From Planctomycetaceae bacterium (GTDB lineage: Bacteria > Planctomycetota > Planctomycetia > Planctomycetales > Planctomycetaceae), in contig JAKFUG010000054.1 of NCBI GenBank assembly GCA_021732785.1, forward strand, positions 1 to 64,000: 64,000 nucleotides of DNA. The letters are read 5' to 3'. Positions within the stretch are counted from its first letter, which is position 1; every line of letters starts with the position of its first letter. The position numbers were made by a program, and so were the translations under genes. Below the pieces are notes generated by a model. That model was not told the DNA's origin, ran no database searches, and saw nothing but the letters and a program-made list of their open reading frames with translations. Shown here piece after piece: positions 47,488-59,249 of the stretch.

Positions 47488-50400
47488 ATGGTGTCGCGGT
47501 TTCTTTGTTTCACGCTGCTCCTTGCCAGTGCGTCAACGGCTTCTGCACAGCTTCCGCAGACGCGTGTGTACGCCGTGTTTCCGCCGGGCGCTCAAAGCGG
47601 GACGTCCGTAGACGTCGTGGTGACCAGCGGGGCGGATCTCGAAGAGCTTTCAAAGTTGCTCTTCAGCCATCCCGGCATCACCGCCGTCCCCAAGATGCAG
47701 GACCAGGCGGGCAAGCTGGTTCCGGTCGTCAACACCTTCACCGTCGCCGTGGCGGGTGATGTGCCTGCCGGGGCGTATGAAATCCGCGGTGTGGGACTGT
47801 ACGGCATCAGCAATCCGCGGATTTTCACGGTCGGCAGTCGCAAGGAAATTCAGGAAACCGAACCGAACAACGCCACCGAACAAGCGACCCCGCTCGAACT
47901 CAATGTCACGGTGAATGGCAAGATCAACGGGGCGACCGATGTCGATGTTTTCAAGCTGACACTCGCGCAGGGACAGCGGTTGCTCGTCGACTGCCTCGCA
48001 CGGCGGATCGATTCCAAACTGGATGGCAGCCTCGAACTGTACGACCCGAACGGTCGCCGGGTTGCCACCGCCCGCAACAACATCTCGCGTGATCCCCTGC
48101 TCGACTTCTCCGTGCCGGCGAACGGCGATTACCTTTTGCGACTCACCGATTTCGTTTACGCCGGTGGTGAAGATTATCTGTATCGCCTGACGGCACACAC
48201 CGGTCCGCAGGTCGATTACGTCTGGCCTCCGGCGGCGGTACCGGGATCGACGGCCGCTTACACGCTCTTTGGTCGCAACCTTCCCGGTGGGGAACCGTCG
48301 GGAGTCATGATCAATGGTCGCCCGCTCGACAAATTGACCGTGAACATCGCCGCGCCGGCCGATGCCGCCCAACTCGATGCCAGCCTGCCGACCGAACCAT
48401 CGTCCTCGGGAATCGACACATTCGCCTATCGGTTCGCCGGTGCCAATGGAATTGCGTCGCCGGTGATGATGACGTTTGCCACTGCTCCTGTGGTGAGCGA
48501 AGTCGAACCCAACAACCTGCCGGCACAAGCCCAGAAGATCACGGTTCCCGGTGAATTCGCCGGTCAATTCCAGGCCAAGGCCGACGTGGATCTGCTGCAG
48601 TTCGAAGCCAAAGCCGGACAGATTCTGTGGATGGAAGTCGATTCGCAGCGCCTCGGCAACGGGGCCGATCCGTACCTCACGCTCGATCAAGTCACCGTCA
48701 ACGAAAAGGGTGAAGAGACACTCAAGCGGATCACCGCGGTGGATGACGATGGCACCAATTTGTTGCCGAATGTGTTCGACACGCTCAATGACGATCCGGT
48801 CTACAAATTCACGGTTCCGGCGGATGGCAATTATCGGATTTCGTTGCGGGATCGTTACGCCGCCAGTCGCGGCAGCCCGCTGCTCATCTGGCGGTTGACA
48901 ATCCGTGCGGAAGTGCCCGATTTCCGCCTGGTGGCCGTTCCGACCTCGCCCACGCCGCCGCCGCAAAAGCAGGCGCTCACGTGGTCCGTCGGGTTGCGAC
49001 GCGGCGACAACGTTCCCCTCAGCGTGCTCGCCCTTCGGAAAGACGGCTACGCAGGAACAATCGATGTCTCGGTGGAAGGTCTCCCGGCTGGCGTGACGTG
49101 CAAGGACATTTCGATCGGGACCACGCCGTCCTTCGGGACATTGGTCTTCACCGCTGCGGAAGATGCTCCGGCGTGGGCGGGAACCGTGCGAATCCTCGGC
49201 AAAGCCAAGGTCGAAGACCCCGTGAAAGTTGCCGCGGTCACCGCTGCGCAAGCCGCCGTGAAGCCGGCCACCGATGCACTCGCTGCGGCGGATAAAGCGA
49301 TCGCCAAACCGGCGGAAGATTTGAAGAAGGAAACGGACGCCCTCGCCGCGGCGAAGACCGAACTCGCTGCCAAGACGGACGACGAAGTCCTGAAAAAGAA
49401 AGTGGCCGACGCCGAAGCGAAAGTTGCGACCGCAACGCAAGCCCATCAGGCCGCGCTGGCCGCAAAAGTTGCGGCGGAAGCCAAGGTGGCCGAAGTCAAC
49501 ACGGCGGTGGCCCAGACACAGGCGGCGAACCTGGCGGCCATCAAGGAAGTCGTCCGTTTTGCCCGCACCGGCACGATCGTCTGGAATGGACAACCCAACG
49601 TTCCCGGCGATGCTCGAATCAGTCAGAATCTGGAACTGTCGGTCATCGAAGAATCGGCACCGTTCCAGCTCGTGACGACCGTTCATCGTGAAGTCGCCCA
49701 TCACAACCGGCAGATTCTCGTCCCGGTCAAATTGATCAAACGGCCAGGGTTCGACGCCAACGTCAACTTGCAGTTCGTGGGACAACCGCAGAACCTGCAG
49801 GTCGAAAACAAAGCGATTAATAAAGACAAGCCGGATGAAACCTTCCGCATCTTCGTTCCGCCGAACGCTGCGGTGGGGACGTACACGATGTATTTGTCGG
49901 GGCAAGCGCAGGTCTCGTATCGTCGCAATCCGCAAAAGGTGGACCGGCTGAAAGCGGAACTCGATGAAGCCGACAAGACCGCAGTCGCTGCCGCCGAAGT
50001 GGTGAAAGTCATCACGACGAAGCGGGACGACGCGGTCAAAGCGGTTCCCGTGGCACAGGAAGTTTTGAAGAAAGCGACCGAAGCCAAAGCGGCCGCGGAT
50101 AAGGCTCTCGTCGATTCCCAAGCCGCGGAAAAGGCAGCGGCGGAAGAGGTCAAGAATGCGGGAGATAATGCGGACGTCAAAGCGGCTGCCGAGAAGAAGC
50201 TGGTCGATGCGCAAGCCGCAGTCAAGGCGGCGACCGAAGCGGTCCCCGTCGCTGAGAAAGTCCGTGCGGATGCCGATGCCGCGGTGAAGGCCGCCGAAGC
50301 GGCCAAGGTGGCCGCCGAAGCGGAACTCAAGCAGATGCAGGATAAGGCGGCAGCCGCTCTCGCTGAAAAAGCCGCCGCCGACAAGCGTCACAAAGATGCC

Positions 50401-50793
50401 GATACCGCCGCCAAACCACAGAACATCAACTTTCTGCCGACAACGACCGCCATCGTTCTCACCATCAAAGCGGCTCCGTATACGTTGACGGCCACACCAG
50501 CCGATGGCGGTAACGTGAAGCAAGGGGGCAAGAACGAAGTGAAGGTCGAAGTCAAACGACAGAACGGCTTCACCGGCCCGGTCACTTTGACGTTACCGCT
50601 CCCGCCGGGCGTCGTCGGTGTGAAAGCCGAGCCGGTCGCCATTCCCGCCGATCAAACCGCCGGCACATTGGTGGTAGACGCCGCCGCCGATGCCCCGGAA
50701 GCCCAACTCGCCAATATGGTGGTCCGGGGCGTTTCGCAGTTCGATGGTGAAGCCGCGGTCGATCAACCGGTCGCACTAAAAGTGGTGAAATGA
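47488..50793 (+). CDS. Large secreted PPC-like/Ig-like protein with two Ala/Lys/Glu coiled coils
   Basis: 1101 residues from ATG 47488 (AGGA 9 bases upstream). Signal peptide 1-20. Two PPC-type (pre-peptidase C-terminal) beta domains begin at about 125 and 335, each opening with Glu-x-Glu-Pro-Asn-Asn, the family signature. Beta-rich Ig-like parts fill 450-580, 680-810 and 985-1101. Between them are two low-complexity helical stretches, about 590-685 and 810-980, made mostly of Ala, Lys, Glu, Asp and Val, predicted to form long coiled coils. One contains Lys-Thr-Glu-Leu-Ala-Ala-Lys-Thr-Asp-Asp-Glu, found also in the next gene product. No catalytic domain is evident. Probably an exported structural protein of a complex with the downstream cytochrome. 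Confidence 0.82.
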   Translation: MVSRFLCFTLLLASASTASAQLPQTRVYAVFPPGAQSGTSVDVVVTSGADLEELSKLLFSHPGITAVPKMQDQAGKLVPVVNTFTVAVAGDVPAGAYEIRGVGLYGISNPRIFTVGSRKEIQETEPNNATEQATPLELNVTVNGKINGATDVDVFKLTLAQGQRLLVDCLARRIDSKLDGSLELYDPNGRRVATARNNISRDPLLDFSVPANGDYLLRLTDFVYAGGEDYLYRLTAHTGPQVDYVWPPAAVPGSTAAYTLFGRNLPGGEPSGVMINGRPLDKLTVNIAAPADAAQLDASLPTEPSSSGIDTFAYRFAGANGIASPVMMTFATAPVVSEVEPNNLPAQAQKITVPGEFAGQFQAKADVDLLQFEAKAGQILWMEVDSQRLGNGADPYLTLDQVTVNEKGEETLKRITAVDDDGTNLLPNVFDTLNDDPVYKFTVPADGNYRISLRDRYAASRGSPLLIWRLTIRAEVPDFRLVAVPTSPTPPPQKQALTWSVGLRRGDNVPLSVLALRKDGYAGTIDVSVEGLPAGVTCKDISIGTTPSFGTLVFTAAEDAPAWAGTVRILGKAKVEDPVKVAAVTAAQAAVKPATDALAAADKAIAKPAEDLKKETDALAAAKTELAAKTDDEVLKKKVADAEAKVATATQAHQAALAAKVAAEAKVAEVNTAVAQTQAANLAAIKEVVRFARTGTIVWNGQPNVPGDARISQNLELSVIEESAPFQLVTTVHREVAHHNRQILVPVKLIKRPGFDANVNLQFVGQPQNLQVENKAINKDKPDETFRIFVPPNAAVGTYTMYLSGQAQVSYRRNPQKVDRLKAELDEADKTAVAAAEVVKVITTKRDDAVKAVPVAQEVLKKATEAKAAADKALVDSQAAEKAAAEEVKNAGDNADVKAAAEKKLVDAQAAVKAATEAVPVAEKVRADADAAVKAAEAAKVAAEAELKQMQDKAAAALAEKAAADKRHKDADTAAKPQNINFLPTTTAIVLTIKAAPYTLTATPADGGNVKQGGKNEVKVEVKRQNGFTGPVTLTLPLPPGVVGVKAEPVAIPADQTAGTLVVDAAADAPEAQLANMVVRGVSQFDGEAAVDQPVALKVVK

Positions 50794-50802
50794 ACTAACA
50801 AC

Positions 50803-50933
50803 TTGTTCCCATGCTCCGCGTGGGAACACACGGCCGAGACGCTCCGCGTCGATGTTATCGAGATGAATGAGCACCCGAAGGCGACGCAGAGCGTCGCAAC
50901 CGTTCGCTTCCACGAAGAGCGTGGGAACGAGGA
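50803..50933. repeat. Cluster of short palindromes between 47488 and 50980 genes
   Basis: Hairpin 1 at 50805-50827 (GTTCCCA...TGGGAAC extended by TGC/GCG, loop TCC), hairpin 2 GACGCTCCGCGTC near 50838-50850 and hairpin 3 at 50881-50897 (GCGACGC, AGA, GCGTCGC). The ends of the cluster also pair with each other: GTTCCCATGCTCCGCGTGG at the left and AGAGCGTGGGAACGAGG at the right. A dispersed-repeat-type composite element in the leader of the cytochrome gene. Confidence 0.75.
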
Positions 50934-50979
50934 ATCAATTTCTCATTGCCAATCGAATTGATCACAGAGGGAATGGTCC

Positions 50980-53862
50980 ATGCCTCGCTTCATTAGCACA
51001 TTCGTGGCGGTGATTTGTCTTGCTTCGGTTGTCGCGGCTCAGCAAGCCGCTGCTCCGGCGGGAAAGATCGAGGCCGTGGCCGTCAATCTCGGGCGACCGG
51101 TCGATTTCCAGAAGGACATCGTGCCGATTCTCGATTCGAAGTGCATCGCCTGCCATAACGTGGCGATCGCCGAGAGTCGCCTGAATCTCGAAGACGTTCC
51201 CAACATTCTGAAGGGAGGCAAACGGGGCCCGGCGGTGATCGCGAAAGATCCCGACAAGAGCCTGATGTTCCAGGTGGCCTGCCGCGCGGTGGAACCCGCG
51301 ATGCCGCCCCTGCCGAACAAGGTTTCCGCCGCAGCCTTCACCCCGCAGGAACTGGGACTGCTCAAGCAATGGATCGTCGAAGGGGCTCCCGCGGGAATGG
51401 GGAGCACGTCGGCGTCCATCGCATGGCAAGCGATCCCGCCAACCATGAACAGCATCTACAGCGTGGCGATGACGCAATGGGGCCGGTTCGCCGCGTGCGG
51501 TCGGGCCAACCAGCTTGATGTCTACGATCTCTCCATCGGTGAACCAGTCGCGCGTTTAACCGATCCCGCATTGACTGCGGCGAAATCGGGCGATAAACCG
51601 CTTTATCCGCGCGGTGCGGCTCATCAGGATTTTGTCCATGCGCTGGCGTTCCATCCGTCGGGCCACCTGCTCGCGTCCGCCGGTTTTCGGGAAGTGAAAT
51701 TCTGGTCGCGTCCGGAATCCGTTCAGCGGCAGAAGTTCGCGCTCGATCCCGCTGCCACCGCGGTCGCCTTGTCGCCCGATGGCAAATGGCTCGCCGTGGC
51801 CGGGGCCGACAACAACATTCGCGTCCTGCAAACGGCAGATGGCCAAATCGCGAAGACGCTCACGGGCCATACCGCACCAGTCACCGGACTCGACTTCGCT
51901 GCGGACAGCACGAAGCTCTTCTCCGCCGGGAAAGACAAGCTGGTTCGCGCGTGGACGCTCGCCGACGGTCAACCCGCCGGACAACTCGAAACTCCGGCCG
52001 AAATCACCAGCCTGCTGCTCGCTGCGGACGGCAAACGCATTTACACCGGTCATGCGGATAACCTCCTGCGCGGCTGGAATGTCCCTTTCGATGCCCCGAA
52101 GCCCGCCGAAGGGGACAAGCCCGCGGAGCCGGTGAAGCCCGTTGTCCAGATGACCGGTCACGGTGGTCCGGTGACGGCGCTGGCAAATGTGCCTGCTCAG
52201 CCGCAGATCGCATCCGCCAGCGCCGACGGCACCTGGCGCGTGTGGGACATCAACAACGGTGGTCAGGTCCGCGCGGCCAATCACGGCGGCCCCATCACGG
52301 CGATGAGCATGAAGTCCGATGGTCAATTCGTGGTGACCGCGGGGGCGAACATCGGGAAACTGTTCAACATCAATGGACAACAAGTCGCCGAGTTGAAAGG
52401 CAATCTTGCGGCTCAACGGGGCGTGCTCACTCTCACCGACGATGATGCCGTGATGAAGTCGCGCATCGGTATTGCCGACGCGGGTTTCAAAGCCGCAGAG
52501 AAAAACTTCAAAGAGCGCGAAGAACAAACCAAGAAGGCAACGGAAGCCAAAGCCGCGGCCGAGAAAGCCAGGGGGGAAGCCGACGCCAAGTTAAAAACGG
52601 CTCAAGACGCCGTGGCCGCGGCCAAGACCGAACTCGCGGCCAAAACCGACGACGAAGCCCTTAAGAAGAAGGTCGCCGATGCGGAAGCGGCGGCCGCGAA
52701 GGAAGTGGACGCTGCCAAGAAGGCGACCGATACGTTTGACGCCTCGGTGAAAGCCCTCGCGCAATCGGAAAAGGGGCAGCAATCGGCCGATGAACAGCAG
52801 AAGGTCGCCAAGCAAGCCCACGAAGCGGAAGTGGCGCTCGGCAAGGCCGCAGAAGACAAACTGAATGCCGCGAAGGCCGCTCTGCCGATGCAGGAGAAGC
52901 CCGTCCGTACGGCGATCTTCGTAGCCGATGGAAAGACCATCGCCACCGCGGGAGACGATGGTGTCGTGCGCACGTGGGATGCGAAAACGGGCAAGCCACT
53001 CGATGAATTCCCCGGGCACACCGCGCCCGTCAATTTCCTCGCAACGGGACCGGATCGGTTGCTCGTCAGCCTGAGCGAAGACAAAGCGGTAATCTTGTGG
53101 GACTCGAATCCGCAGTGGCAGTTTGCCGGCGTGCTCGGACCCAACGCGGCGGCTCCCCTCGATCTCGGGCCTTCGCCGTTCGTCAATCGCGTGCTGTCGC
53201 TCGCCTTCAGTCCGGACGGCAAACTGCTCGCGACCGGCGGCGGCGATCCTTCACGCAGTGGCGAAGTCCTGCTGTGGAATGTCGAAACGAAAGCCTTCGT
53301 GAAGGCCCTGCCTGATGCTCACAGCGATACCGTCTTCGGTCTCGAATTCTCGCGCGACGGCAAGTGGCTCGTTTCGGGGGCCGCGGACAAATTCGTGAAG
53401 GTACACGACGTCGAAACCGGTAAGCTCGTGCGGTCGTTCGAAGGTCATACGCATCATGTGCTCGGCGTCAGTTTCAAGGCCGACATGAACCGCATCGCCT
53501 CCGCGGGAGCCGATAACGCCATCAAGATCTGGAACGTGGAAACCGGCGAGCAACACCGCACGATTCAGAATTATTCCAAGCAGGTCACGTCGATCCACTT
53601 CATCGGCGTCGGCGATAACGTCATCAGCGGCAGCGGCGACAAAACTGTGAAAATGCACCGTGCCAACGACGGCGGCAACTACCGCGGCTTCAGTGGCCCG
53701 ACCGATTTCGTCTACAGCGTGGAGTGCGCGCGCGATGAATCGATCGTCGTCGCTGGGGGGGAAGACGGCGTGCTTCGCGTGTGGAACGGCACGAACGGGC
53801 AAGTCCTCTTCAACTTCGAACCACCGAAGCCCCCCGCGGAAAACACGCAGGCCGCGAAGTAA
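50980..53862 (+). CDS. Secreted PSCyt1 cytochrome-WD40 protein with coiled-coil insert
   Basis: 960 residues from ATG 50980 (GAGG 9 bases upstream). Signal peptide 1-20; a PSCyt1 cytochrome domain with heme c site Cys-Ile-Ala-Cys-His (55-59); WD40 repeats at about 155-480 (Leu-Thr-Gly-His-Thr-Ala-Pro-Val ... Val-Arg-Ala-Trp); a coiled coil at about 490-640; then a second set of WD40 repeats at about 640-945 (Asp-Gly-Val-Val-Arg-Thr-Trp-Asp; Ala-Ile-Lys-Ile-Trp-Asn). The insert carries the same Lys-Thr-Glu-Leu-Ala-Ala-Lys-Thr-Asp-Asp-Glu segment as the upstream protein. It is an extracytoplasmic electron-carrying propeller protein, probably in one transcription unit with 47488-50793. Confidence 0.88.
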   Translation: MPRFISTFVAVICLASVVAAQQAAAPAGKIEAVAVNLGRPVDFQKDIVPILDSKCIACHNVAIAESRLNLEDVPNILKGGKRGPAVIAKDPDKSLMFQVACRAVEPAMPPLPNKVSAAAFTPQELGLLKQWIVEGAPAGMGSTSASIAWQAIPPTMNSIYSVAMTQWGRFAACGRANQLDVYDLSIGEPVARLTDPALTAAKSGDKPLYPRGAAHQDFVHALAFHPSGHLLASAGFREVKFWSRPESVQRQKFALDPAATAVALSPDGKWLAVAGADNNIRVLQTADGQIAKTLTGHTAPVTGLDFAADSTKLFSAGKDKLVRAWTLADGQPAGQLETPAEITSLLLAADGKRIYTGHADNLLRGWNVPFDAPKPAEGDKPAEPVKPVVQMTGHGGPVTALANVPAQPQIASASADGTWRVWDINNGGQVRAANHGGPITAMSMKSDGQFVVTAGANIGKLFNINGQQVAELKGNLAAQRGVLTLTDDDAVMKSRIGIADAGFKAAEKNFKEREEQTKKATEAKAAAEKARGEADAKLKTAQDAVAAAKTELAAKTDDEALKKKVADAEAAAAKEVDAAKKATDTFDASVKALAQSEKGQQSADEQQKVAKQAHEAEVALGKAAEDKLNAAKAALPMQEKPVRTAIFVADGKTIATAGDDGVVRTWDAKTGKPLDEFPGHTAPVNFLATGPDRLLVSLSEDKAVILWDSNPQWQFAGVLGPNAAAPLDLGPSPFVNRVLSLAFSPDGKLLATGGGDPSRSGEVLLWNVETKAFVKALPDAHSDTVFGLEFSRDGKWLVSGAADKFVKVHDVETGKLVRSFEGHTHHVLGVSFKADMNRIASAGADNAIKIWNVETGEQHRTIQNYSKQVTSIHFIGVGDNVISGSGDKTVKMHRANDGGNYRGFSGPTDFVYSVECARDESIVVAGGEDGVLRVWNGTNGQVLFNFEPPKPPAENTQAAK

Positions 53863-53983: not shown

Positions 53984-56900
53984 TCATTTCTGTTTGTCGA
54001 CAATCGGAATGAGCCGCACCGATCTCAAGTCCATCAATGCGGGCAGCGGTCGCGACGCGGGTTTGAACGTCAATGGTTGCACGCCCGCTTGCAGGTCGAT
54101 GGTGCCGATGGTGGTTTTGCGGTAGTCGTCCCAGCCCGCGGTGGCGGTGATTTTGTGCGTCACAGTGCTGCCGCGAGATGTGACCACCAGTCGGTGTCCC
54201 GCCGCTTGTGCTTCGCAGGCCCACTCGATCTCAATCTGATATTTCCCGGCCTTCGGCACATCCAGCGTCCACACGACAAAATCGTCGGCGCTGCTCCACC
54301 AACCGAGATTGCCGTGCTCTGATTCGAGGACGATGGTCGGGCCGTAGATTTCACATGTTGCGGGGGTGAGTTCAAATTGTCCTTCGGCATCGGCAACGAT
54401 CCGCTTCGGTTCGTTGCCGGCGAATGTCTTTCGGGACGGCAGCGGGACGTTGCCACGGATGAAGGCGATCAGGTCGGCCATTGCTGCGGGGGATAATTCC
54501 TTTTCGAGACCTTCCGGCATCAGCGATTTGTTGACCGCAAAGAGTTCGTCGATCTCGGTCCGCAGCAGCGTGGTCGCTTTGGCTTCCGCGGCGAGCAACG
54601 TAACGCTGGTCGCGGTTTCGTTGGTAAGCAGGCCCGTCACCACCAGCCCATTGTTGGTCGCCGCGTTGAATTGCAGGAACTTCGTTTCGACGGCGCGGTT
54701 GGGATCGAGCACCGCGGTCACCAGTGCGGACACGCTTTTATCGGACAGCGATGCCAAATCCGGCCCGACCGCGTGGCCGATCTCGCCGAGCTTGTGACAC
54801 TGCCCACACCGTTTCGCGAATATTTCCCGGCCTGCGGCAGCATCGCCTGCTTCCGGCATCGTGCGCAGATAATTCGCCACGACTTCCGCCCGGTTCGCGG
54901 TGTCGGTCCGCTTCAGCACGCGCTCCGCTTCCTGCCGGATTTTTTCGTCGCGGTGTGACCGCAGGAATTGTTCGGTCTCGGGATCGATGTCCGCGGGCGT
55001 GAGTGCCTTCGTCGCCACCGCTTTCAACAACGCCGCGGCCACCGGCGGACGACCCAGCAATTGTTCCCGTGCCGTTGGTCGTAATGCGGGTGACAATTTC
55101 GGCCAACCGACCACAATCTGCTCCGCGGTCGCCGTCGACTTCAACCGCCCGGCCAACTCCATCGCCGCCCGTTGGACTTCGACCGGTTGGATGGGTTTCA
55201 ACCAGTCCGCGGAGAAGGCGGGGTTAGTGGTCGTCTCTCCGTAGAGTCGCAAAGCCGTCGCGCGTTGTGATGCCTCTACCTTAGGGTCATCGATCATGGG
55301 ACGCAGCGTCCTCAGCCAATCGGTCCATGCGATACCGAGTTTAAGCTGCGCTATATTGGTCGCTTCCAGCCACGTCGACCAGGTTTCATTCCGCCGTCGT
55401 TGAGCCCGCATCCATAGATCGATCGCTGCCCACTGCCACGGCTCGGTTTCCGCCGGTGGCTTCGACAACACGATCTCGGCGAAATACCAAAGAGAATCAA
55501 GATCGTTGACTGCGACTGCATAGTTCAGCAATGGTTCAAAAACCGGATGCTTCGTAAGTTCATCAGGCGGAATTAGAAAGGACATTGAGAGAATAAGAGT
55601 CGGTAGCGATTTCTCATCAATCGAACTGAGCGCCATCGCGCGCACGTATGGATCATCCGTAAATATCAACAACTGGAGAAACGCATGCCGTTTAAGCCCA
55701 TCGGAATGAAGTCCGCCCAAGATCGCCGCGAGTCGCAGTTGGACCCACGGCTCAGGGGCAGCCATCATAACGGCAATTTCCCGAAGAACCTCGTCATTCT
55801 TGTTCGCAAAAGCCTCTGCAATCCGGACGGCGTTGGCTCGCACACCCGGGTGATGATCTTTCAATCCAGCCAACAGAATTTCGGGAGACAAACCGCCGAG
55901 TTGGTTCAAAGTATACAGCGCCTGCACGCGCACTTCCGGATGCTTTGAGTCCTTGATGATCGCCGTCAGTGCAGCGAAGCACCCCGGCTGCTCGGAAGCA
56001 GCCGGGGTGCTGTTGGCAGCCCGCGTGATTAAAAGTTGTTGCACCGTATCCCGCTGCCAGCGGTTCGGCGTATCCATCGCGGCGACGAGTTCCACATCGC
56101 TGAGTTTGTCCAGCCGTGGCGACTTCGACAGTTTCGCTCCAGTCGGAAAGACGCGCCATAAGCGGCCTTTGTCTTCGCCGGCGCGGACGTTGAGTTTTTC
56201 CTGCCATTCCTGCGGGATCCATTGCGGGTGTTCGATCACCAGCCGGTACATATCCGCGATCCACAACGCCCCGTCGGGACCGACCCGCAGTTGCGTCGGC
56301 CGGAACCAGTTGTCGGTCGACGCGAGGAATTCCGACTGCTGCTCGTCGTCCAGCCGCCGACTGCGAAATGTCACGCCGCTCGGCTCCATGAGTTCGCAAT
56401 GGACGAGGTTGTGGACGGGTTCGCTCACGAAGGAAAGCTGAGGGCTGAGGGCTAAGGGCTGAGGGACGGAGGAAGACGTAACATCGGCAGCGCTGGGATT
56501 TTTCTCTTCTCTGTCCCTTAGCCCTAAACCCTTAGCCCTTAGCCCCTCCATCAGCTCCCCCGTCACAATCGCCCCACACGCCGACGTGAACCGGTTCGCA
56601 GTATGAAAATCGTTGAACCGTGTCAGCGTTTTGCTCGCGGGGAACACGGGGGCGTTGCCGGGTTGGTTCGAGACGTCGCGGCGGGTGTCGGGCGGGGCGA
56701 GGTGCGGGTTGCGGCTGAGGTAGCGGTCTTCGAGGACATAGTGCCACAACGGACGGCTGTTGTTGTTGCCGAACCAGTGGCCCCAGTCGTCCCGATTGCG
56801 GCCGAACTGCGTCTGCCCTTCGATCGCTTCCATGTCGCCGGTCTCGGGGTGAATCCGCAAGTCACGGCCGCGGATGTCGAGTTTTTTCCCCGTCTTGGTG

Positions 56901-59176
56901 GATGTGATCGCCCCGCCGGAATCGCCGTTGCCGAGGTGCAGCCAGCCGTCGAGTCCCCACGTGAAGCCGTTCACGCGGTGCTGCTGGTTCCCCTCGGTGA
57001 AGCCGGTGTAAAGCACCTCGCGGACATCGGCTTTGCCGTCGCCATCGGTATCGGCGGCGAAGAAAATGTCCGGGGCGGCGGAGATGAGGACGCCGTTTTT
57101 CCACGGATGGACGCCGTTGGGGAACGGCACTTTGTCGAGGAACAGCGTCGACTTGTCGTACTCGCCGTCGTCGTTGGTGTCTTCGAGGAACCGCACGCGG
57201 CCGCCCGGTGAGCCGCGGCCGTCCATGCCGTTGGGATAGTCGGCCATCTCGACGACCCACAGCTTGCCGTCCGGTCCCCATTGGAAGGCAACGGGGTCCA
57301 TGACCATCGGCTCGTGGGCCATCAGTTCGATGGAGAACCCCGGCCGCACGCGCATCGACTCGACCGCCGCCCGCGGAGTTTTCGCCGTCGGCATCCGGTC
57401 GCCGAGCAGCTTGTCGAAGTCCCAGCTCACCGCCAGATTCGGCCGATCCGCGGTGTCCTCATTGATCCAGTGCAACCCGCGATCACGCACAAAGAACCCG
57501 TTGTCGGTGCCATCCACACGGACAATCGGCGGTAGTTCCTGATCCGCGGGCTTGTCGCCGCGCTTGCCGGACATCAGTTCGATGGACCAGCCTTTTTCCA
57601 TCGACTCGAAGAGCCAGACGCCGTAGTCTTCATTGGATGAATAGACAACATCAAGCCGTCCATCTTCATCGATATCAATGAAGCGTTGCCCAATATCATC
57701 CCTCGTATCGCTTCTGCGAATGCCATTCATCGGAAGCCACGCTCTGACCTCCGATAGCCCGAGTCGCTTAAATATTACGGAGTCTTTTCCTCGTCTTGCC
57801 CGGATGATTTCCTCGACGACGCCATCGCCGTCAATGTCTGGAAACGGATATCGCAACCAAGGTGCATCCCATGCGTATCCTCCTAGGGAGACGGGTCGCG
57901 CATTCAAACGAATGATGGCACCATCGGAAGTGGTAATCGCAGTTTGAGCCTTCTCGATATGGAAACTCACTCCGGAGACACGCGTTTCCCCGGCGGGGAG
58001 TCGGGTTGATGTCCATTTTTTCGCGATTGGGTTCCATATCTTGGCAAGACACTGATCTCCGGCCTGCGTGACGATGTCTTGAATGCCATCACTATCCAAG
58101 TCAATCAACTCAATAAGCTCAGTTAACTCTGAACTCGGAGTTCGAACAGACCTGCCATCGAACAGATTTTTGTTCAACCGTTCCAGCGCTTCCTTGAACG
58201 TCAGAAACTTCACCTTCTTGCCGTGCTTGGTGACGGCGTGGTCGATGAGTTCGTTGACTTGCTCGGCTTTGATCCAGCCGTGCGGGTGGAAGACGAGGTT
58301 GAGGACGCCCTGCTTGAGGACTGTGATGTCGAGGGCCGCCTTCATGTCCTCGACCGTCTGCGGATTGTTCGGCTGATGCAGGAAGTTGGCTTCCCAGTCC
58401 GACGGCGTCATGCACGGGAACTCCCAGCAGAGCCGGTCGATGACGTAGGGGTACGGATAGTTCTCGACGTAGTTGAGGAACCGGTCATGCGTGGTCTCGC
58501 CGCGTGTCAATCCCTTCGGAAAATATTTGCGGAAGCGTTCCTTGCCGTCGGCATCAAAGAGCAATTCGCGCGGGATATCGGGGTCATCGGCCGTATAGAC
58601 CTGAAAGACCGACGAACTGATCTGCAGGAACTTTCCGCTGGGCGAGGTCTTGTTGAAAATCTCCTTATAGAACCGCGGGCTGACGGTGTTGAGCGAGTCA
58701 CAGCACGGCATGCGATACGCCACCGGCGTGTTGTTGGGGATGCTGAACAGCAGGTCGACGCACTTGTCGTACGTCCCCTTGGCCTTCGCGAGTTCGCCCT
58801 GCAACAACGGGCAGGGATGATCGAACGTGTGGACTTCGAGGCTCACGCCTTCCTGCAGCCACGTCTGCAACTGCGGGTCGTTCGGGTCGACCTTGCACGT
58901 CATGATGCTGACCGGCGCGCGGCCGTCGATCTGCTTCAACCGCTGCAAAATCGGCCGCAGATACGACTCATACTTCGCCGTGTCGCGCATGTCGTCGATG
59001 GCGAGAATCACCGCTGCTTCGACGCCGTCCTCGCCAACCCACTGCGGTGTGATGAGCTTGGGAAATTTCGTGTGCGGATAGTAGATGTCGTGGCCATCGA
59101 GATACGCCAGGCGGTTGCCATCGACCGGATTCGCGGCCAATGCCGCACACAGACAGAAAGAAAGCCAGGACGACAT
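53984..59176 (-). CDS. Giant secreted fusion: deacetylase-like, FG-GAP-like, PVC dehydrogenase, heme domain
   Basis: 1730 residues from ATG 59176 (AGGAG 7 bases upstream; a GTG at 59182 is in frame). After a short signal, residues 45-345 are polysaccharide deacetylase-like, with Asp-Asp (61-62) and His-Thr-Phe-Asp-His (116-120). About 350-590 are FG-GAP-like calcium loops. About 605-1030 is the PVC-type membrane-bound dehydrogenase propeller (Glu-Met-Ala-Asp-Tyr-Pro-Asn-Gly; Ser-Ala-Cys-Gly; Ser-Thr-Asp-Asn-Trp-Phe-Arg-Pro). HEAT-like helices follow at about 1030-1330. A heme c site Cys-Gly-Gln-Cys-His lies near 1457, and the last 120 residues resemble a carbohydrate-binding module. Two repeats interrupt the frame (see separate entries). 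Probably oxidises or deacetylates glycans outside the cell. Confidence 0.85.
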   Translation of the reverse strand: MSSWLSFCLCAALAANPVDGNRLAYLDGHDIYYPHTKFPKLITPQWVGEDGVEAAVILAIDDMRDTAKYESYLRPILQRLKQIDGRAPVSIMTCKVDPNDPQLQTWLQEGVSLEVHTFDHPCPLLQGELAKAKGTYDKCVDLLFSIPNNTPVAYRMPCCDSLNTVSPRFYKEIFNKTSPSGKFLQISSSVFQVYTADDPDIPRELLFDADGKERFRKYFPKGLTRGETTHDRFLNYVENYPYPYVIDRLCWEFPCMTPSDWEANFLHQPNNPQTVEDMKAALDITVLKQGVLNLVFHPHGWIKAEQVNELIDHAVTKHGKKVKFLTFKEALERLNKNLFDGRSVRTPSSELTELIELIDLDSDGIQDIVTQAGDQCLAKIWNPIAKKWTSTRLPAGETRVSGVSFHIEKAQTAITTSDGAIIRLNARPVSLGGYAWDAPWLRYPFPDIDGDGVVEEIIRARRGKDSVIFKRLGLSEVRAWLPMNGIRRSDTRDDIGQRFIDIDEDGRLDVVYSSNEDYGVWLFESMEKGWSIELMSGKRGDKPADQELPPIVRVDGTDNGFFVRDRGLHWINEDTADRPNLAVSWDFDKLLGDRMPTAKTPRAAVESMRVRPGFSIELMAHEPMVMDPVAFQWGPDGKLWVVEMADYPNGMDGRGSPGGRVRFLEDTNDDGEYDKSTLFLDKVPFPNGVHPWKNGVLISAAPDIFFAADTDGDGKADVREVLYTGFTEGNQQHRVNGFTWGLDGWLHLGNGDSGGAITSTKTGKKLDIRGRDLRIHPETGDMEAIEGQTQFGRNRDDWGHWFGNNNSRPLWHYVLEDRYLSRNPHLAPPDTRRDVSNQPGNAPVFPASKTLTRFNDFHTANRFTSACGAIVTGELMEGLRAKGLGLRDREEKNPSAADVTSSSVPQPLALSPQLSFVSEPVHNLVHCELMEPSGVTFRSRRLDDEQQSEFLASTDNWFRPTQLRVGPDGALWIADMYRLVIEHPQWIPQEWQEKLNVRAGEDKGRLWRVFPTGAKLSKSPRLDKLSDVELVAAMDTPNRWQRDTVQQLLITRAANSTPAASEQPGCFAALTAIIKDSKHPEVRVQALYTLNQLGGLSPEILLAGLKDHHPGVRANAVRIAEAFANKNDEVLREIAVMMAAPEPWVQLRLAAILGGLHSDGLKRHAFLQLLIFTDDPYVRAMALSSIDEKSLPTLILSMSFLIPPDELTKHPVFEPLLNYAVAVNDLDSLWYFAEIVLSKPPAETEPWQWAAIDLWMRAQRRRNETWSTWLEATNIAQLKLGIAWTDWLRTLRPMIDDPKVEASQRATALRLYGETTTNPAFSADWLKPIQPVEVQRAAMELAGRLKSTATAEQIVVGWPKLSPALRPTAREQLLGRPPVAAALLKAVATKALTPADIDPETEQFLRSHRDEKIRQEAERVLKRTDTANRAEVVANYLRTMPEAGDAAAGREIFAKRCGQCHKLGEIGHAVGPDLASLSDKSVSALVTAVLDPNRAVETKFLQFNAATNNGLVVTGLLTNETATSVTLLAAEAKATTLLRTEIDELFAVNKSLMPEGLEKELSPAAMADLIAFIRGNVPLPSRKTFAGNEPKRIVADAEGQFELTPATCEIYGPTIVLESEHGNLGWWSSADDFVVWTLDVPKAGKYQIEIEWACEAQAAGHRLVVTSRGSTVTHKITATAGWDDYRKTTIGTIDLQAGVQPLTFKPASRPLPALMDLRSVRLIPIVDKQK
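55978..56011. repeat. Perfect 15-base-stem hairpin inside the giant fusion gene
   Basis: AGCACCCCGGCTGCT, a CGGA loop, then its exact complement. In frame it codes for a short Thr-Pro-Ala-Ala-Ser-Glu-Gln-Pro-Gly-Cys-like stretch (about residues 1055-1066) that interrupts the helical repeats. It looks like an inserted REP-type palindrome. Confidence 0.8.
56436..56547. repeat. Inverted-repeat element inserted in frame in the giant fusion gene
   Basis: The left part is AGCTGAGGGCTGAGGGCTAA and more of the same; the right part is CCCTTAGCCCTAAACCC and more. The two are complementary, separated by about 40 bases, a pattern of dispersed intergenic repeats. It encodes about 37 residues (near 876-913) rich in Gly, Leu, Arg and Ser, placed between Gly-Glu-Leu-Met and Ser-Glu-Pro-Val-His-Asn of the dehydrogenase domain, where the family normally has a short loop. 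The reading frame stays open across it. Confidence 0.82.
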
Positions 59177-59249
59177 CCGCACGCTCCTGAAAAGAGGATG
59201 CGGCTATCATCGCGTGCGACGAACAGAACGGCAACGGCGCACGCCTTGT

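Follow-up and report, generated by a model that had tools for sequence, protein, structure and literature searches.

A conserved planctomycete gene pair encodes an exported PPC scaffold and a heme-WD40 protein with alike coiled-coil hairpin tips that may join the two proteins

Introduction

In the PSCyt1 (PF07635)-WD40 proteins of PVC bacteria, WD40 repeats follow a PSCyt1 heme domain, and the genes have PSCyt2/PSD1 (DUF1549/DUF1553) genes as neighbours. The combinations of PSCyt domains found in Verrucomicrobia include WD40, and their functions were stated to be wholly unknown (PMC5615132); DUF1501 was noted near planctomycete WD40 genes (PMC5587647). The protein P0002 analysed here has the same domain order, and unlike the PSCyt1-WD40 proteins described it has two propellers with a long hairpin between them, and its partner, the PPC/hairpin protein P0001, is constant. 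In the openly licensed literature we found no description of this PPC/heme-WD40 pair or of its hairpins. Planctomycetes are rich in PSCyt proteins, for which a partner that is conserved and has matching arms offers a concrete, testable complex.

The nearest architectural analogue of the arms would be the cytoplasmic hairpins of the chemoreceptors (MCPs), the tip of which is conserved. Both are long heptad-based antiparallel hairpins with a conserved tip and heptad length classes: chemoreceptor hairpins fall into length classes counted in heptads (PMC2577667), and the commonest length step in the P0001 and P0002 families is 42 residues, 21 per arm. In contrast to the MCP hairpins, those of P0001 and P0002 are predicted to be exported and are fused to propellers and Ig/PPC domains, the likeness being one of architecture only. 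The MCP signalling domain was not found among the Pfam matches of P0001, which comprise PPC and a weak Transglut_N only, and was not seen among the best 25 of the 54 Pfam matches of P0002.

Results

Two neighbouring genes share a 25-residue segment

The two genes lie in a window of 64,000 nucleotides, the whole stretch of Planctomycetaceae DNA that was analysed. They and the segment that they share are located as follows.

47488..50793, + strand: PPC/Ig-like exported scaffold protein P0001, 1101 aa (ORF; Pfam PPC; AlphaFold2 mean pLDDT 81.6)
50980..53862, + strand: PSCyt1 cytochrome/double WD40 exported protein P0002, 960 aa (ORF; Pfam; AlphaFold2 mean pLDDT 85.2)
49345..49419, + strand: tip of PPC hairpin 1, AAAKTELAAKTDDEVLKKKVADAEA, residues 620-644 of P0001 (KTDD turn at 629-632, AlphaFold2 model)
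52615..52689, + strand: tip of the inter-propeller hairpin, AAAKTELAAKTDDEALKKKVADAEA, residues 546-570 of P0002 (KTDD turn at 555-558, AlphaFold2 model)

The original prediction was that both neighbours carry one motif, identical bar one residue and written in differing codons, and the alignment agreed on both counts: residues 620-644 of P0001, which is the exact position, and 546-570 of P0002 are identical at 24/25 residues and at 64/75 bases, and 10 of the 11 base differences are synonymous. The shared segment reads AAAKTELAAKTDDE[V/A]LKKKVADAEA. When both coils were shuffled with their composition preserved, the best match in 1000 trials was 15/25, which rules out a chance match from coil composition. 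Searched with a 48-residue profile (A3) built on the segment, the window's genome gave two matches (E 1e-14 and 7e-13) and no third place at E<2 in its 6.69 Mb, the next match having an E of 2. The possibility that the motif is common low-complexity sequence in this genome was thus ruled out, and across 61 family genomes about 58/70 matches of the tip profile fell, by position, within the PPC and heme-WD40 families.

An identical codon is used at 14 of the 24 matching residues, against the 10.9 that the codon usage of both genes predicts; since this is near chance level, a recent gene conversion in the window's genome is not supported. The same figures bear on the possibility that one hairpin arose within the locus as a copy of the other, perhaps accompanied by occasional gene conversion; the likeness would then be by descent and contact unneeded. 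The 21-residue repeats common to all hairpins are in line with such a duplication, as are the same-codon rate at matching tip residues of 45 genomes (0.50 versus 0.43 expected) and tips peculiar to one locus, e.g., D[A/P]NNDGLKKAK in all three hairpins of locus L050 (genome G046). We nevertheless consider it quite improbable, given the near-chance codon agreement in the window, the tips of L046, L047 and L049, which have no codon excess, and the near-identity of the amino acids at saturated codons, which descent alone leaves unexplained.

The shared segment is predicted to form the tip of a hairpin in both proteins

AlphaFold2 models of P0001 and P0002 were built on alignments of relatives. 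Together with the Pfam matches they delimit these further parts.

49219..49539, + strand: PPC hairpin 1, residues 578-684 of P0001 (AlphaFold2 helices 578-589, 591-628 and 633-684)
49930..50409, + strand: PPC hairpin 2, residues 815-974 of P0001, turn AGDN at 891-894 (AlphaFold2 helices 815-890 and 895-974)
51142..51309, + strand: PSCyt1 heme domain, residues 55-110 of P0002, CIACH at 55-59 (Pfam)
51460..52395, + strand: WD40 propeller 1, residues 161-472 of P0002, 28 strands (AlphaFold2 model)
52405..52881, + strand: inter-propeller hairpin, residues 476-634 of P0002 (AlphaFold2 helices 476-554 and 559-634)
52903..53817, + strand: WD40 propeller 2, residues 642-946 of P0002, 28 strands (AlphaFold2 model)

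Since both models place KTDD at the turn, the shared 25-mer is predicted to be, in the same register, the tip of one antiparallel coiled-coil hairpin per protein. In the predicted structures a short turn connects two long helices, and the arms have a heptad periodicity of 3.50 and an internal 21-residue repeat. The long helical coils proposed around the motif were therefore recovered, with the segment as their turn and not as part of an uninterrupted coil.

In P0002, Pfam detects WD40 (E 2e-79, 11 WD40 stretches) and PSCyt1 (E 1e-9; 39 bits versus a cut-off of 22) with its CxxCH motif. C55, C58, H59 and M108 are invariant among 19 relatives, and the domain is predicted from its sequence to bind heme. 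By strand count (2 x 28) the model corresponds to two seven-bladed propellers. The coil had been thought to interrupt a single propeller; this was ruled out, as the hairpin falls between two full sets of 28 strands.

In P0001, the PPC domain (PF04151) was found at residues 366-454 (E 5e-11; 43.7 bits versus a gathering score of 25.9). The coil was correctly described as an insertion: hairpin 1 takes the place of a loop of 5-16 residues in relatives that lack it, whereas the second, longer hairpin had not been separated out. PDB fold searches with P0001 and P0002 gave no whole-protein match; the matches of P0001 include the collagenase collagen-binding domains 3jqw and 1nqd. An antisense frame of 957 codons (window 47650-50523, - strand) overlaps the PPC gene and is probably a by-product of its codon make-up and no gene.

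The gene pair and its hairpins are conserved

Relatives of P0001 occur in 150/150 family genomes examined, many of the matches being paralogs. At each of 20 close loci the genes lie side by side and each encodes an in-register tip at this place, except at L052, where PPC hairpin 1 is lost and the partner tip is unchanged; the tips are alike in most of these loci and have diverged in the more distant ones. The set was extended with 80 named loci identified through conserved second-propeller peptides, so that the hairpin was not a selection criterion. The resulting 78 non-redundant pairs come from Planctomycetes, with a few records from Verrucomicrobia; in all of them the PPC gene is followed by the adjacent heme-WD40 gene on the same strand, the neighbourhood conservation that had been proposed as a check.

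The inter-propeller hairpin is present in 78 of these pairs, PPC hairpin 2 in 77 and hairpin 1 in 45, with a loop of mostly 5 residues where hairpin 1 is absent. The PPC partner has at least one hairpin in 77/78 pairs and the heme protein has one in 78/78; in the exception, L121, both PPC hairpins are lost and the hairpin of the heme protein is the shortest of the set (101 residues). Tips were taken as recognised at a profile score >10 bits, which yielded 36 in hairpin 1, 9 in hairpin 2 and 62 in the heme protein, with no recognition in many distant heme proteins and most hairpin 2 tips. Nearly all recognised tips, on hairpins of 112-293 residues, are centred at 0.49-0.51 of the length of their hairpin.

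Exact length steps of 42 or 84 residues recur across the 78 pairs (167/209/251/293; 113/197/239; 137/179/221/263), with many exceptions, as if each arm had gained three heptads (21 residues per arm). Of 49 length changes, 17 come to within 3 residues of a multiple of 42, with 8.2 expected (p=0.002), the periods and tolerances having been chosen after viewing the data; a strict 42-residue ladder has moderate support only. Hairpin length shows no positive correlation between partners (Spearman -0.03 and -0.39 in the 78 pairs, uncorrected for relatedness), and matched arm lengths were accordingly dropped as a sign of side-by-side packing.

Fused and unpaired relatives differ in their coils

As pairing controls, 40 further loci and 11 of the window's genome were analysed. 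Coils are present in both proteins at 25 further loci that have both genes, some of which may repeat loci of the 78. PPC paralogs without an adjoining heme-WD40 gene and uncut by a contig end are coil-less in 10/15 cases and have a short C-terminal coil only in 5/15, a count read from the table that includes L163, whose heme-WD40 paralog is one gene away. In G048, where the two genes lie far apart (about 0.19 and 1.99 Mb), the PPC protein keeps its coils and the tip profile matches both proteins. Three other arrangements were compared.

L167:5876-8683, + strand: fused PSCyt1-WD40-PPC protein (also L208-L244)
L163:543-2912, - strand: PSCyt1-WD40 paralog of the window's genome, C-terminal Ala-rich coil with a KPEDAAAKQ tip
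L166:6914-8965, - strand: PSCyt1-WD40 paralog with an Ala-rich N-terminal coil before the heme domain, without a PPC neighbour

Fused PSCyt1-WD40-PPC proteins occur in 52/58 genera of the family sampled. They unite the same kinds of domain in one chain in the same bacteria, have BLAST-detectable similarity to both P0001 and P0002, and in the window's genome have DUF1501 and DUF1549/DUF1553 neighbours. They differ from the split pair in lacking a coil, which is absent from all 37 inspected, and in their apparently single propeller. The fused and the split forms are probably one lineage each, and the coil contrast therefore comprises few independent events. The pairing contrasts fit hairpins that substitute for the covalent link. 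For the role of the arms, a natural mutant series is available in the fused, split, hairpin-less and shortened forms. The L163 heme-WD40 paralog lies near a PPC gene without a coil, and the PPC protein of L158 has a short hairpin but no heme-WD40 gene next to it; the C-terminal hairpin of the former and the short hairpin of the latter carry similar tips, though neither has a hairpin-bearing neighbour.

Tips of the two proteins tend to be more alike within a genome

Tips were placed by geometry alone, and near relatives were thinned at identity cut-offs of 0.8, 0.7 and 0.62. At these cut-offs the tips of hairpin 1 and of the heme protein matched better within the same genome by +1.58, +1.82 and +1.87 of 36 residues (p 0.003, 0.002 and 0.010), and for hairpin 2 the excess was +1.6 to 2.2 (p ≤ 0.0001). 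In 59 control windows of the arms it was +0.15, with a maximum of 0.94. With all 45 genomes kept and unthinned, the hairpin 1 excess was +0.39 (p=0.14); with GC3 matching the difference was similar in size, with p=0.14 for hairpin 1 and p=0.015 for hairpin 2. These figures are suggestive of an effect driven by some genomes, e.g., those of the window and of L050. The figure was stronger in an initial test on 20 genomes, which is not relied on because it ignored relatedness.

The weakness of the same-genome excess once GC3 is matched is one of the points in favour of a generic helix-capping turn, [K/D]-[P/T/K]-[D/E/N]-[D/N]-x-x-L, of the Ala-rich hairpins of this lineage, each arm being a stalk or spacer on its own, with no pairing between them. 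This residue pattern recurs in the PPC hairpin 2 tips of L046, L049, L050, L051, L103 and L112 and in the L163 and L158 hairpins, and the L052 partner keeps its tip although hairpin 1 is gone. On the other hand, the 24/25 identity spans both sides of the turn, elsewhere in the window's genome nothing scores above background, and the same-genome excess is far smaller in the arms; the strict pairing of hairpin-bearing genes and the coil-less fused forms would also be left unexplained. We regard a generic turn as a serious, if doubtful, account of the whole, and the near-identity of the tips may in part reflect a common turn sequence.

The hairpins may hold the two proteins together

The predicted hairpin anatomy has good support. 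The best single reading, which the generic turn follows closely, is that the hairpins hold P0001 and P0002 together, and we would put it somewhat short of an even chance. Antiparallel coiled-coil hairpins would project from each of the two exported partners, and the arms of the PPC scaffold and the arm of the heme/double-propeller protein would pack against or dock onto each other, either in the periplasm or extracellularly. Two separate chains would in this way form the unit that fused relatives make as a single PSCyt1-WD40-PPC chain. The likeness of the tips would stem from a turn design common to all these hairpins, and they would be near-identical here through tip contact or common origin. 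As for the heme unit, electron transfer by the single-heme PSCyt1 domain would be the default guess from the family.

The KTDD turns, the gene order (78/78), the mid-point tips, the coil-less fused forms and the same-genome tip excess suggest that the arms join the proteins, as do L121, whose partner hairpin is the shortest where both PPC hairpins are lost, and G048, where the separated genes keep their coils. L052, L163, L166, the lack of length covariation and the GC3-matched p=0.14 for hairpin 1 count against it. An undescribed assembly with pairing coils had been predicted: the conserved gene pair with hairpins in both partners (77/78) agrees with this, the contact itself being what we infer, and an exported two-protein assembly, previously undescribed, is probable. 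A wider proposal, of a heme assembly widespread in Planctomycetes and Verrucomicrobia in which co-evolving arms with matched tips replace the covalent link and lengthen symmetrically in three-heptad steps, is tentative and in our view rather unlikely.

Genes surrounding the pair

In relatives, a DUF1549/DUF1553 (PSCyt2/PSD1) gene usually lies directly upstream of the pair. In the window's genome this place is occupied by an enolase-superfamily gene, and the closest DUF1549/DUF1553 homologue is on another contig (G000 contig C85:12277-14751), 78% identical to the gene preceding the pair in L033. This arrangement bears on the possibility that both tips bind the same third molecule, be it the cell wall, the outer membrane or the upstream DUF1549/DUF1553 protein, which the same tip on unrelated scaffolds and the upstream gene of most relatives would fit. 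It would surprise us greatly, since the tips are almost identical here with that gene on another contig, and no candidate ligand was identified.

Beyond the pair, at window 53984-59182 (- strand), lies a gene for a 1732-residue protein with DUF7133, HEAT repeats, cytochrome c and a carbohydrate-binding-like end; its start is polysaccharide-deacetylase-like, below the Pfam cut-off.
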